DNA of 64,000 bases from Bradyrhizobium erythrophlei (lineage in GTDB: Bacteria; Pseudomonadota; Alphaproteobacteria; Rhizobiales; Xanthobacteraceae), in contig NZ_LT670849.1 of NCBI RefSeq assembly GCF_900142985.1, forward strand, positions 3,922,501 to 3,986,500, in the 5' to 3' direction. Shown here in pieces: positions 8,237 to 60,553 of the stretch. A program made the position numbers and the translations under genes. Below the pieces are notes generated by a model, which saw nothing but the letters and a program-made list of their open reading frames with translations, searched no databases and was not told where the DNA came from. Every line of letters begins with the position of its first letter. Within the stretch, counting starts at the first letter, position 1.

Positions 8237-8311
8237 CTAGTGGTCCGATTCTAACATTCGCATCCCTTCTCAGCAGTCACTTTGCGAATGTTAGAATCAA
8301 AGGACCACTAG
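8237..8311. repeat. CTAG-ended palindromic element R1
   Basis: 75 bp beginning CTAGTGGTCC and ending GGACCACTAG. The inner arms are ATTCTAACATTCG and CGAATGTTAGAAT. It folds into one long hairpin with a short loop. First of a family of at least seven full copies in this window; paired with R2 13 bp away. Confidence 0.9.
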
Positions 8312-8324
8312 CAAATATAGGTCT

Positions 8325-8403
8325 CTAGTGGAGTTTAGGATCTGACATTCGCTTTCCGAACTTGCGGCTAGGTGGGGAGCGAATGTCAGATCCACTCCAC
8401 TAG
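8325..8403. repeat. CTAG-ended palindromic element R2
   Basis: 79 bp beginning CTAGTGGAGT and ending ATCCACTCCACTAG. Inner arms are GATCTGACATTCGC and GCGAATGTCAGATC. It has the same architecture as R1 with different outer arm sequence, and both lie in the divergent cvpA/SDR intergenic region. Confidence 0.9.
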
Positions 8404-8503
8404 TCTTGCGCGATGGTGGCGAACCTTGGTGAACGAATTCGGTTTGCGGTCGTGAAAATCGTCTATATCAATCGGAGCTTGAGTGACGCTTTCGGAGTTC
8501 GTC

Positions 8504-9265
8504 ATGTCCGGTCTATTCGACGTCAGTAAAGAAACCATCCTCATCACCGGCGCTTCGCAGGGATTAGGCCGGCAGTTCGCGCGCGTGCTTTCCGCCCATG
8601 GTGCGGCCGTCGCACTGGCCGCGCGGCAGACCGCCAAGCTGAAGGGGCTGGAAGAAGAGATCAAAGCCAAAGGCGGCCGCGCCGCCGCGGTCGCGATGGA
8701 CGTCACCGACGGTGCCTCGATCGTCAGCGCCATCGATGCCGCGGAGGCCGCGCTCGGTCCCGTCACCGTGCTGATCAACAATGCCGGGATCGCGATCGAG
8801 AAGCCGGCGGTCGAGCAGACCGAAGCGGACTGGGATGCGGTGATCGGCGCCAATCTCAAGGGCGCCTACTTCGTGGCGACCGAAATGGCGCGGCGGATGA
8901 TCTCGCGCAAGCAGGAAGGCAACATCGTCAACGTCGCTTCCGTGCTTGGATTCGGCGTGATGAAATTCCTCTCCCCCTACACCATCTCCAAGGCCGGCAT
9001 CGTGCAGGCAACGAAGGCGATGGCGCTCGAACTTGCGGGCAACCGCATCCGCGTCAATGCGATCGCGCCCGGCTATATCGATACCGAGATCAACCACCAT
9101 TTCTGGTCGACGCCGGGCGGCGAAAAGCTGACCAAGCGGATTCCGCAGCGGCGTGTCGGCAGCGAATCCGATCTCGACGGCGCGATCATGCTGCTGGCGT
9201 CTTCCGCCTCGCGCTACATGACCGGCAGCGTGGTCACCGTGGATGGCGGTTTTCTGCTGACCTGA
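8504..9265 (+). CDS. SDR family oxidoreductase (glucose/ribitol dehydrogenase or FabG-like)
   Basis: A classical 253-residue short-chain dehydrogenase: TGASQGLGRQFARVL near the N-terminus (NADP-type), NNAG motif (VLINNAGIAIEKP), and catalytic Ser-Tyr-Lys in VASVLGFGVMKFLSPYTISKAG. The C-terminus ends ITG-like (YMTGSVVTVDGGFLLT), typical of FabG relatives. ATG at 8504 has CGGAG 6 nt upstream; an in-frame earlier start at 8483 lacks a ribosome site. The gene is divergent from cvpA across two palindromic repeats and stands alone before the tRNA gene. Confidence 0.9.
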   Translation: MSGLFDVSKETILITGASQGLGRQFARVLSAHGAAVALAARQTAKLKGLEEEIKAKGGRAAAVAMDVTDGASIVSAIDAAEAALGPVTVLINNAGIAIEKPAVEQTEADWDAVIGANLKGAYFVATEMARRMISRKQEGNIVNVASVLGFGVMKFLSPYTISKAGIVQATKAMALELAGNRIRVNAIAPGYIDTEINHHFWSTPGGEKLTKRIPQRRVGSESDLDGAIMLLASSASRYMTGSVVTVDGGFLLT

Positions 9266-9298
9266 GCCGGGACGATGCCCGGCGGTAACGATGGGTTC

Positions 9299-9327
9299 CC
9301 GTCAGGCCTGAGCGAGGGCCCTGACGG
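9299..9327. terminator. Hairpin downstream of the SDR gene
   Basis: CCGTCAGG and CCTGACGG pair across a 13-nt loop about 33 bp after the SDR stop. There is no T-run, so if it ends transcription it would not be a classic intrinsic terminator. The rest of 9266-9582 shows no gene that I can support. Confidence 0.4.
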
Positions 9328-9582
9328 AAATCCGGCCGGGCGCGCTGGTTTCGGCCGGTTCGGCGAAAAAGGGCAGGTTTTTCGCCAATTTTGCTGTCAC
9401 AAAATCCTCAAAAGTGACCTCGCGGCCCTTTCCAAAGCAGGCGGTCGTTGGTACATACCGCCCGCGACCTCAAGGCCTCAGCGGCCGTGGGTTGCCTTCT
9501 CAGGAAGCCTCTGGACGGAAGCGGCGCCTCTGGCGTTAACCTACCCGTTTCGGCTTTTCTAAAAGGCAAAGCAAAAGTTTAT

Positions 9583-9659
9583 CGCGGGGTGGAGCAGCCC
9601 GGTAGCTCGTCAGGCTCATAACCTGAAGGTCATAGGTTCAAATCCTATCCCCGCAACCA
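9583..9659 (+). tRNA. Initiator tRNA-fMet (CAT anticodon)
   Basis: 77 nt with encoded CCA. The acceptor arms CGCGGGG and CCCCGCA leave the C1-A72 mismatch typical of bacterial initiator tRNA. The anticodon arm is TCAGG-CTCATAA-CCTGA with CAT in the loop, and the T arm is ATAGG TTCAAAT CCTAT. An intrinsic terminator follows at 9691-9718. A 44-nt degenerate copy of its middle part lies at 23818-23861. Confidence 0.97.
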
Positions 9660-9690
9660 AATAAAATGCTGTTTTATCAGCTTTATTTGA

Positions 9691-9718
9691 AAGAGCCGCT
9701 CTCCGGAGCGGCTCTTTT
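9691..9718 (+). terminator. Intrinsic terminator after tRNA-fMet
   Basis: Perfect 9-bp stem GAGCCGCTC / GAGCGGCTC with a TCCG tetraloop followed by TTTT. It lies 32 bp after the tRNA and marks the end of that transcript. Confidence 0.9.
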
Positions 9719-58945: not shown

Positions 58946-58958
58946 ACTTCCTCCCACG

Positions 58959-59035
58959 CAGTGTGGCGAAGCTGACGTTCCTTTCAGTTTCGCGGTGATA
59001 ACTTCAAAGGAACGTCAGCGTCAAAGCCACACTAG
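58959..59035. repeat. CTAG palindromic element R7
   Basis: 77 bp; left end CAGTGTGGC (CTAG altered), right end GCCACACTAG; inner arms CTGACGTTCCTTT and AAAGGAACGTCAG. Paired with R8 14 bp away. Confidence 0.88.
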
Positions 59036-59048
59036 AATCATATATTTG

Positions 59049-59124
59049 CTAGTGTCCTTTTGATTTTGACATTCGTAAAAGTGCTCGTTGCGACAGGATA
59101 CGAATGTCAAAACCGGCACACTAG
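59049..59124. repeat. CTAG palindromic element R8
   Basis: 76 bp beginning CTAGTGTCC and ending GGCACACTAG; inner arms TTTTGACATTCGTA and ACGAATGTCAAAA. Same inner core as R2 and R9. Confidence 0.9.
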
Positions 59125-59222
59125 CGCCCGGCGATACCGAAATCGCCTCGCGACGTGACATTCAGAGTATCGAACCCGGTGCAATCTTGACAAGGATGGT
59201 CGGGCGCGCGAAGCCAGCTCCC

Positions 59223-60257
59223 ATGAGCATGGCCCCGCCAACCGATCCTTCAAAGTCAGTTGCCGGCATCGGGCCGGAGCGCGTCGGCGTGCTGCTGGTC
59301 AATCTCGGCACGCCCGATACCGCCGACACGCGCGGCGTTCGCGTCTACCTCAAGGAATTTCTCTCCGACCCGCGCGTGATCGAGAATCAGGGCCTGGTGT
59401 GGAAGCTTGTCCTCAACGGCATCATTCTGCGCACGCGTCCCAGCCGCAAGGCCCGCGACTACCGCAAGATCTGGAACACCGAGAAAAATGAATCGCCACT
59501 CGCCACCATCACGCGGGCGCAGTCCGAAAAACTCGCCGCCGATATCGCGGGCGACCGCGTCGTGGTCGACTGGGCGATGCGCTACGGCAACCCCTCGATC
59601 TCTTCGCGGGTCAACGCACTGACCGCGCAGGGCTGCGATCGCCTGCTGGTCATGCCGCTCTATCCGCAATATTCGGCAGCGACCTCGGCAACGGTGTGTG
59701 ACGAGGTCTTTCGCGTGCTCGCGTCCATGCGCGCGCAGCCGACCTTGCGGGTAACGCCGCCCTATTACGACGACGCTGCCTATGTCGAAGCGCTCGCCGT
59801 CTCGATCGAGGCGCACCTGAAAGGTCTCTCGTTTCAGCCTGACGTCATCGTCGCGTCATTTCACGGCATGCCGAAAAAATATGTCGAGAAGGGCGATCCC
59901 TATGAACGCCAGTGCATGGCGACGGTGGAAGCGCTGCGCAAACGCCTGAACCTCGAGCCAGCGAAACTGCTGCTCACCTTTCAGTCGCGTTTCGGCTTCG
60001 ATGAATGGCTTCAGCCCTATACCGACAAGACCATGGAACGGCTGGCCAAGGATGGCGTGCGCCGTGTTGCCGTCGTCACGCCCGGCTTTGCCGCCGACTG
60101 CCTGGAAACGCTGGAAGAAATCGCGCAGGAAAATGCCGAGATTTTCCAGCATCATGGCGGCGAGCAATTTTCCTTCATTCCCTGCCTGAACGACAGCGAA
60201 GTCGGCATGGACATGATCCGCCAGCTGGTTTTGCGCGAGCTCCAGGGCTGGATCTAA
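59223..60257 (+). CDS. hemH: Ferrochelatase
   Basis: A 344-residue ferrochelatase inserting Fe(II) into protoporphyrin IX in the last step of heme synthesis. Signatures: VGVLLVNLGTPDTADTRGVR near the N-terminus, NPSISSRVN, MPLYPQYSAATSATVCDEVF, and the catalytic His in VIVASFHGMPKKYVEKGDPY; the late Glu/His region is HGGEQFSFIPCLNDSEVG. Starts possible upstream, but ATG 59223 is the natural N-terminus; the upstream frame runs out of a palindromic element. Flanked on both sides by pairs of CTAG elements. Confidence 0.94.
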   Translation: MSMAPPTDPSKSVAGIGPERVGVLLVNLGTPDTADTRGVRVYLKEFLSDPRVIENQGLVWKLVLNGIILRTRPSRKARDYRKIWNTEKNESPLATITRAQSEKLAADIAGDRVVVDWAMRYGNPSISSRVNALTAQGCDRLLVMPLYPQYSAATSATVCDEVFRVLASMRAQPTLRVTPPYYDDAAYVEALAVSIEAHLKGLSFQPDVIVASFHGMPKKYVEKGDPYERQCMATVEALRKRLNLEPAKLLLTFQSRFGFDEWLQPYTDKTMERLAKDGVRRVAVVTPGFAADCLETLEEIAQENAEIFQHHGGEQFSFIPCLNDSEVGMDMIRQLVLRELQGWI

Positions 60258-60385
60258 CCACTCGCTTTTCTATTTACCGAACCCTACATCTTGTAATGGC
60301 GACCAAGTAAAAGGGTTTGCCGTTGCTTGCGAACGATTGGCGTTTGCGAGACGCGGCGTTTTCGCGCTTTCAGCGCTATTTGCCG

Positions 60386-60462
60386 CTAGTGTCCCGGTTC
60401 TGACATTCGTATTTTTTTCGCAGCAGGCACTTTTACGAATGTCAGAACCAAAGGGACACTAG
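60386..60462. repeat. CTAG palindromic element R9
   Basis: 77 bp beginning CTAGTGTCCCGGTTCTGACA and ending AAGGGACACTAG; inner arms TTCTGACATTCGT and ACGAATGTCAGAA. Paired with R10 13 bp away. Confidence 0.9.
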
Positions 60463-60475
60463 TAACGATATAATT

Positions 60476-60553
60476 CTAGTGTGGCTTTGACTCTGACCTT
60501 CCTTCGAGGAGTTCGGGGCCGCACTGAAAGGAACGTCAGTGTCGCCACACTAG
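60476..60553. repeat. CTAG palindromic element R10
   Basis: 78 bp beginning CTAGTGTGGCTTTGACTCTG and ending GTCGCCACACTAG; inner arms related to R7 (AAAGGAACGTCAG). Its right end abuts the ribosome-site region of the SPFH gene (AGGAG at 60552). Confidence 0.88.

Follow-up and report, generated by a model that had tools for sequence, protein, structure and literature searches.

Paired CTAG-bounded hairpins of Bradyrhizobium as probable miniature elements of the IS630 family

A 64,000-nt window of the Bradyrhizobium erythrophlei genome (assembly GCF_900142985.1, contig NZ_LT670849.1, positions 3,922,501 to 3,986,500) holds palindromic hairpins ending in CTAG, most of them joined into double-hairpin units. 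Sequence comparison makes it very probable that these double hairpins are miniature inverted-repeat transposable elements (MITEs) derived from insertion sequences (ISs) of the IS630 family and moved in trans by an IS630 transposase, with the whole unit inserting at a TA dinucleotide that usually lies within CTAG. Each outer end consists of 26 nt of the kind found in one IS630 subgroup (CTAGTG followed by a YCCGNNTCTAACRTTCG-like sequence) and then of an inverted second copy, which makes one hairpin per end. It is the design that is unusual, with a hairpin made from two copies at each end, of which the one facing inward is apparently disabled. The first-pass annotation of the window had proposed miniature elements mobilised in trans with CTAG as their target, a proposal that empty sites in relatives and the IS630-like arms now favor. 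The source genome comprises 7,525,117 bases in one contig; G and L labels denote genomes and loci.

Architecture and copies

The usual unit, about 167 bp in total, is a hairpin, an AT-rich linker of about 13 nt (usually 13 and CAAATATANGNTT-like) and a second hairpin in reversed orientation; the strict pairs listed span 163-171 bp, too short for a transposase gene. A single palindrome of about 77 bp, first taken as the unit, describes the solo hairpins that do exist (such as that at 31678) but not the usual arrangement. Each hairpin has a 10-bp outer stem (CTAGTGnnnn), an inner stem of 16-17 bp, a loop, the inner 3' arm, a bulge (e.g., AAA) and nnnnCACTAG. The loop, described initially as short, has 20-odd nt (mostly 20-24) and often a GCSGC core. 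A bulge of 3-4 nt is found on one side only in 84 of 100 distinct hairpins, and the second, inward copy nearly always carries an insertion of 2-5 nt, mostly 3-4, between its outer and inner blocks.

Six palindromes of 75-79 bp in the window run exactly from CTAGTG to CACTAG (starting at 8237, 8325, 31678, 59049, 60386, and 60476), as the first-pass annotation had it; the seventh of its full copies, at 58959, begins with GCAGTG, one end being altered, and is still a strong covariance-model match (63.1 bits). The model recovers these seven hairpins and one weak remnant near 33068, which corresponds to one of three degenerate copies proposed earlier (33064). The other two, at 38848 and 42001, gave no model match at E <= 0.1 with default filters, and these palindromes may be due to chance. 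Six of the seven hairpins form three pairs with a 13-nt spacer, their bulges turned toward it; the A hairpin at 8237 and the B hairpin at 8325 are thus one 167-bp element. For the hairpin at 31678, the model detects no partner at the usual distance. The window copies and their parts are as follows.

8237..8311, + strand: A-type hairpin, bulge on the right, arms CTAGTGGTCC and GATTCTAACATTCGCA (pattern and covariance model)
8312..8324, no strand: 13-nt AT-rich linker CAAATATAGGTCT
8325..8403, - strand: B-type hairpin, bulge on the left, arms CTAGTGGAGT and GGATCTGACATTCGCT (covariance model)
31678..31756, + strand: solo hairpin, CCGC type (pattern and covariance model)
33068..33132, + strand: possible decayed hairpin, a weak match at 18.5 bits, E 0.059 (covariance model)
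58959..59035, + strand: paired hairpin, left end GCAG instead of CTAG (sequence and covariance model)
59036..59048, no strand: 13-nt linker AATCATATATTTG (read off the sequence)
59049..59124, - strand: partner hairpin of 58959, before the hemH gene (pattern and covariance model)
60386..60462, + strand: A-type hairpin, arms CTAGTGTCCC and GGTTCTGACATTCGTA (pattern and covariance model)
60463..60475, no strand: 13-nt linker TAACGATATAATT
60476..60553, - strand: B-type hairpin, arms CTAGTGTGGC and GACACTGACGTTCCTTT (pattern and covariance model)

Genome-wide, strict palindromes number 212, against 39 for a backward-read control pattern, which agrees with the expectation that such palindromes exceed chance. 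The 150 covariance-model matches listed, less 8 of ambiguous length that were dropped before merging, give at least 129 separate hairpin places in the source genome. The set A1 was made from strict CTAGTG hairpins, so that copies with other ends are under-represented in it. An apparent parent locus with four hairpins, suggested by exactly four model matches in many genomes, was rejected, being one pair counted on both strands.

In 293.5 kb of source-genome sequence (the window plus 20 stretches, L002-L021, picked for holding hairpins and so not a random sample), the hairpins fall into 39 clusters: 35 pairs, 2 singles, 1 triple, and 1 double pair. When the better-scoring strand is taken for each hairpin, bulges face the linker in 35/35 pairs and in both pairs of the double cluster. 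Partner types are mostly fixed (GGTCC with GGAGT, TCCC with TGGC, CCCA with CCGC, CTCC with CGGT), with a few mosaic pairs, e.g., at L006:15970 and L007:5239. The triple hairpin lies at L006:15883-16137, and a solo hairpin at L011:17111-17185 is half B and half A unit; recombination between hairpins may reshuffle units in this way. Elements abut through a common CTAG in the source genome. In G260, a hairpin-rich genome of another genus, a separate scan of 400 kb found 129 hairpins, with 46 of the 128 gaps measuring 13 nt and 22 consisting of a shared CTAG, the elements standing end to end.

Likeness to IS630 ends

A candidate partner is present in G260: an intact IS of 1,184 bp whose 360-aa transposase carries the Pfam domain DDE_3 (PF13358) and has relatives annotated as IS630 family. 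Its two copies are 100% identical and both are bounded by CTAG; one of them is lodged inside a hairpin element, where it follows the linker and is separated from the B hairpin by a second IS. Its ends are CTAGTGTTCCGTCTCGCAAATCAG (which begins CTAGTGTTCCGTCTCGCAA) and CTAGTGTCCTGACTCTCAATTGCC. The GTCTC-type arms of G260 match one of the two ends at 19-20 of the 26 positions, and a further two arm types found locally do so at 14-17. An IS with similar ends had been suggested as a check, and it was thus found here, although not in the source genome (see “Proposed mechanism and points against it”).

The wider comparison draws on plasmids. For 18 plasmid IS relatives, the search for ends required nothing but TA at positions 2-3; 13 passed the score cut and 5 were dropped, and 12 of the 13 with a clear end pair start with CTAGT. 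Together with the G260 IS, these 13 supplied a profile of 28 IS630 ends. Scored at positions 7-26, so that CTAGTG is uncounted, 100 hairpin arms reach a mean of +8.3, whereas 500 shuffles average -15.8 (standard deviation 0.68, best -13.6) and the reversed, complemented, and reverse-complemented arms score -16.5, -26.2, and -11.9. The best arm-to-end match beyond CTAGTG is 17/20, attained by 4 of the 100 arms; the maximum among 2,000 shuffled arms is 13.

The bulge separates the two arms of a hairpin sharply. Against 26 of the 28 ends (the ISPsy32 pair, with GTAC, being left out) and with 5 of the 100 hairpins set aside, the unbulged arm scores 8.8 and the bulged arm -19.7, and the former is the better of the two in 94 of 95 hairpins. 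Cutting out the bulge restores a score of 8.2, as expected because the arms are complementary. In every one of the 35 two-hairpin clusters the bulge is turned toward the linker, so that the outward arm is the one without it. The spacing of IS ends is that of this unbulged, outward arm, and the bulge breaks this spacing in the other arm.

According to the accessible text of PMC2170065, ISY100, a member of the IS630 family, duplicates TA in vitro, and a paper cited there bears in its title a preference of IS630 for TA in 5'-CTAG-3'.

Other ISs stand near the hairpins of G260. Beside the partner, at L318:17816-18873, is another IS with CTAGAGCAG ends and three copies in 400 kb, placed at CTAG next to hairpins, which we take to be a second IS630-like IS. 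The first candidates for an autonomous copy proved not to be partners: a presumably IS256-like gene within a hairpin loop (L273:4329-6052), and one and the same IS, presumably IS3-like, in the linkers of two elements in opposite orientations (122368-123803 and 233739-235174). Their positions indicate that hairpins serve as IS landing sites. No recurrent protein gene was found beside hairpins when 4,227 reading frames from 84 loci were clustered; among the 25 largest clusters, those spanning at least four loci were orthologous loci or apparently common families.

Insertion sites and spread

Six copies in G010 differ at few bases and have unrelated flanks up to the CTAG at each end, which marks the boundaries of the unit. 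Empty sites in relatives, another check proposed at the outset, were found at three places and are mostly CTAG or CTAA. Opposite the G010 copy at L144:1371-1535, 11 relatives have CTAG (eight), CTAA (one), or TCAG (two); on the minus strand, this CTAG would end a reading frame. Opposite a second G010 copy, at L144:17581-17745, nine relatives have CTAG (one), CTAA (four), TCAG (two), or TCAA (two). The third element, at L147:7982-8148, lies 2 bp before the GTG of a SmpB gene (PF01668) in G038, G144, G052, and G134; five of six relatives without it have CTAA and one has CTTG. TA, as CTAG or CTAA, is thus present at the empty site in 9/11, 5/9, and 5/6 relatives. The 8237 element of the window is absent from the aligned site in G177, G156, G096, and G122 and is decayed, with mismatched stems, in G193; around the element by hflK, relatives are too distant for an empty site to be read.

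The family is widespread. With the source genome included, matches at E <= 0.001 occur in 125 of 195 genomes of the genus and in 163 of 296 genomes and 34 of 47 genera of the bacterial family, some genera counting through one weak match; at most 16 (family) and 24 (genus) candidates per genome were scored under stricter filters, which makes absences soft. On plasmids, the 8237 element has relatives in six records, among them ones from Aminobacter (80% identity over 99%) and Martelella, whereas a search with the G010 element gave no plasmid match; a search of phages with one query returned no copy.

A stretch of the source genome at C1 4.50-4.75 Mb (L363-L375) is low in GC (57-60%) and has 45-62 CTAG per 50 kb, compared with 9-21 in the next 150 kb. 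It holds one clear element and one weak match, and the next 150 kb hold one more. With few elements despite abundant CTAG targets, it resembles a genomic island acquired when most insertions had already taken place.

Covariation of the stems

The earlier claim that the arms covary beyond chance is borne out. Across 44 hairpins, 97.0% of 1,142 stem cells pair, compared with 75.0% in shuffles, and shifting the partner by one column lowers pairing to 38-40%. Two-sided changes occur at 18 of 26 pairs, with 264 double-change cells against 11 one-sided, a number of double changes reached by none of 500 shuffles. In a looser set of 100 distinct hairpins from 84 loci, 36 of 1,973 cells are mismatched, of which eight are G-T and eight A-C. 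This lack of a G-U excess suggests that pairing is constrained as DNA, since a hairpin selected as RNA should tolerate G-U, and it weighs against selection at the RNA level as a general explanation; selection on the hairpin, as first proposed, is supported as a constraint of that apparent kind. Strong stem covariation need not mean RNA: paired ends bound by a transposase may also produce it, which screens that infer structured RNAs from covariation should take into account.

Host genes and fixed copies

None of the 39 elements lies inside a called gene (genes in the L002-L021 stretches were called with a simple codon model of our own). Fifteen start or end on the stop codon of a neighbor, and 13 of 31 CTAG stops in the chosen stretches carry an element; some of these frames may have been cut short by insertion rather than being whole. 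A preference for CTAG stop codons would account for the tolerance of such large copy numbers. The gene context is tandem for 19 elements, divergent for 9, convergent for 8, and undecided for 3, against a background of 123, 39, and 30. A frame annotated on plasmid pCB82_1 as a sugar-binding protein has its end precisely on the first CTAG of an element. Because the SmpB element ends 2 bp before the GTG, any Shine-Dalgarno sequence there must lie in the hairpin arm.

In ABC transporter operons, elements separate ehuC from a gene for a binding protein (L268:4001-4170) and a gene for a sugar-binding protein from one for an ATPase (L270:3001-3084). Between operon genes is a usual place for repetitive extragenic palindromes (REPs) that tune operon expression.

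One element, beside a UbiA gene at L161:6358-8121, occupies the same place in seven genomes (orthologues L152, L154, L155, L158, L159, and L160). Its stems vary in 3 of 106 columns, its loops in 14 of 43, its linker in 8 of 15, and the flanks in 88 of 300 and 63 of 299. The loop of its A hairpin holds an in-frame ATG that leads into the UbiA gene, and the 3' arm could encode the first residues; the other hairpin has CACG...CGTG ends that still pair, and among other fixed copies there are GTAG, CTGG, or CAAG ends, likewise paired. The in-frame ATG and the frozen stems imply that this copy at least may have a job.

Within the window, a reading frame at 59088-60257 matches TIGR00109 (hemH), with its start called at 59223. 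The right CTAG of the 60476 hairpin ends 9 bp upstream of a start codon at 60563; the reading frame that begins there is HflK-like, with a match of 77.7 bits that is below the curated cut-off. A speF leader RNA (RF00518, 48.7 bits) lies at 53617-53766 on the minus strand.

Proposed mechanism and points against it

The following sequence of events would account for IS630-derived MITEs. An IS630 transposase acting in trans would recognize both outward arms, excise the whole unit, and join it to TA, usually within CTAG, with duplication of the TA. Disabling of the inward arms by the bulge would ensure that the double hairpin moves and not one half of it. Subfamilies would track different IS630 ends, in which case arms vary yet stay self-complementary. 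Many copies would then decay, and a few at fixed places seem to be under selection.

Several observations weigh against this account. Over the three empty sites together, the junction has no TA in 7 of 26 relatives, which lowers confidence slightly; the relatives are 80-96% identical, so these sites may have changed since. Filled sites have CTAG on either side and many empty ones have it once, a pattern that a 2-bp TA duplication, a 4-bp CTAG duplication, and a CTAG borne by the element all fit. Some old copies have other, still pairing ends (CACG, GTAG, CTGG, CAAG). The correspondence of A with the right and B with the left IS end is weak: nine of 12 sets are for it, two against, and one tied, among 14 end pairs of which one (L333) falls below the score cut. 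No IS630 of the subgroup was found in 1.09 Mb of the source genome (693.5 kb plus 400 kb, about 14.5%) or in 733 kb of loci drawn from further genomes with hairpins, and the one partner IS detected, that of G260, belongs to another genus. Finally, a MITE model alone explains neither the near-frozen stems of the fixed UbiA-side copy nor the lasting complementarity of the inward arm, which may be kept by arm-to-arm copying or by selection on the hairpin.

A broader proposal, to which we give somewhat less than even weight, is that the elements represent a new MITE architecture. They would carry inactive decoy ends. The palindrome would be maintained by a process acting on the DNA itself, whether copying of one arm from the other or selection, either for a cruciform or for a transposase that binds both arms; the elements would evolve in step with successive IS630 transposases across the bacterial family, and some fixed copies would be domesticated at gene ends or starts.

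Alternative explanations

A family of host regulatory RNAs or terminators, spread by selection rather than by movement of its own, is very unlikely. The nearly invariant stems of the fixed copy in seven genomes, the elements placed on stop codons (15 of 39), and the in-frame ATG ahead of the UbiA gene in one copy would suit it, but G-T mismatches are no more frequent than A-C, relatives lack the 8237 copy at its site or have a decayed one, near-identical copies stand in unrelated flanks in G010, and gene-orientation context is near background. Nor did Rfam yield a match over the window hairpins at E up to 1.

Slightly less probable still are REP-like or REPIN-like (REP doublet forming a hairpin) single-strand elements, moved by a Y1 (HUH) transposase such as a REP-associated tyrosine transposase (RAYT) or one of the IS200/IS605 kind, with CTAG as a GTAG-like tag and the paired hairpins as the REPIN. 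Reminiscent of such a system are the inverted pairing of imperfect hairpins, their tetranucleotide foot, and the GTAG...CTAC ends of some copies. Searches of hairpin-bearing genomes detected Y1 genes in 7 of 13 and in 8 of 17, and one of these genes, in G250, is about 150 bp away from a hairpin pair (L291). Set against this, PF01797 has no match in the source genome, even at E <= 0.1, or in G010, whose copies are fresh; 27 of the 34 Y1 loci fetched were scanned, and two (L291 and L295) have a hairpin in the stretch. Among the matches listed, orientation shows no clear bias along the chromosome (71 versus 58). The hairpins do not combine a GTAG or CGTC tag with a 5-13-bp stem. The likeness to IS630 ends would also be left unexplained. 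At L188 (G177) and L190 (G015) there is a RAYT-like gene of 175-187 aa, with no hairpins in the fetched stretch; the gene beside it is similar at both loci and presumably LysR-like.

An origin from an IS5-family IS with a 4-bp YTAR (CTAG) duplication, favored in the first-pass annotation, is just as improbable: CTAG flanks filled sites and is single at many empty ones, and a 100-bp Pseudomonas syringae MITE with a CTAG or YTAA duplication comes perhaps from such an IS (accessible part of PMC3189936), but the arms resemble ends of the IS630 subgroup (Tc1/mariner-like, with TA inside CTAG) over all 26 positions, in a comparison made with IS630 ends and no IS5 ends, and in one genome (G260) an IS630 has matching ends.

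Under the preferred reading, descent from IS630, a dispersed repeat that is very common in the Bradyrhizobium family acquires an identity together with a candidate mover, and the inward-arm bulge makes a sharp prediction on how an IS630 transposase measures its ends.

Comparison with known systems

Palindromic repeats of other rhizobia and of Brucella include RIME and Bru-RS. No description of the double-hairpin elements of the present study was found in the literature covered, which leaves out most subscription journals; the accessible part of PMC12306157 mentions neither CTAG nor Bradyrhizobium. The comparisons below draw on the accessible parts of the papers cited.

Like the REPs, bacterial interspersed mosaic elements, and REPINs that go with RAYTs (GTAG and CGTC families, PMC3733652), the elements are abundant intergenic hairpins, often in inverted pairs; unlike them, they have stems of 26 bp in two blocks instead of 5-13 bp, other ends, and no generally linked Y1 transposase. 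Separate from the hairpins, inverted repeats in the window at 4914-4999 and 1774-1843, with GGCCGGGTCAA-like arms and the first beginning CGTCATGCCCGGGC, look similar to the CGTC-tagged REPs of that paper. Within the genus, Br-REP1 and Br-REP2 of Bradyrhizobium japonicum are likewise repeated intergenic palindromes, set apart by a printed consensus that is shorter and seemingly unrelated (PMC5082802). The double-hairpin elements of Allomyces mitochondria and the repetitive hairpin elements of sponges are also repeated, presumably mobile paired hairpins, and stems are conserved more than loops in the latter; these belong to organelle DNA, and the analogy is one of shape only (PMC2800124).

Closer are IS630-family ISs with CTAGTG or CTAGTC ends, namely the G260 IS and plasmid ones, e.g., those annotated as ISAzs31 and ISMex18, which are alike in the terminal 26 nt and in the CTAG on both sides; they differ in encoding a DDE_3 transposase (360 aa in G260), for which the hairpin elements are too short. 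The nearest parallel in kind is RUP of pneumococcus, a 107-bp MITE with about 110 copies and ends like those of IS630-Spn1, of which it is presumed to be a MITE (PMC3049150, PMC2229807). Both are non-coding, have ends like those of an IS630-family IS, and target TA, and the ends of RUP are said to pair as it folds. In contrast to this single short repeat, the elements described here have an inverted duplication at each end, hence two hairpins with four end-like arms, two of them apparently disabled, and comprise many diverged subfamilies spread over a bacterial family.

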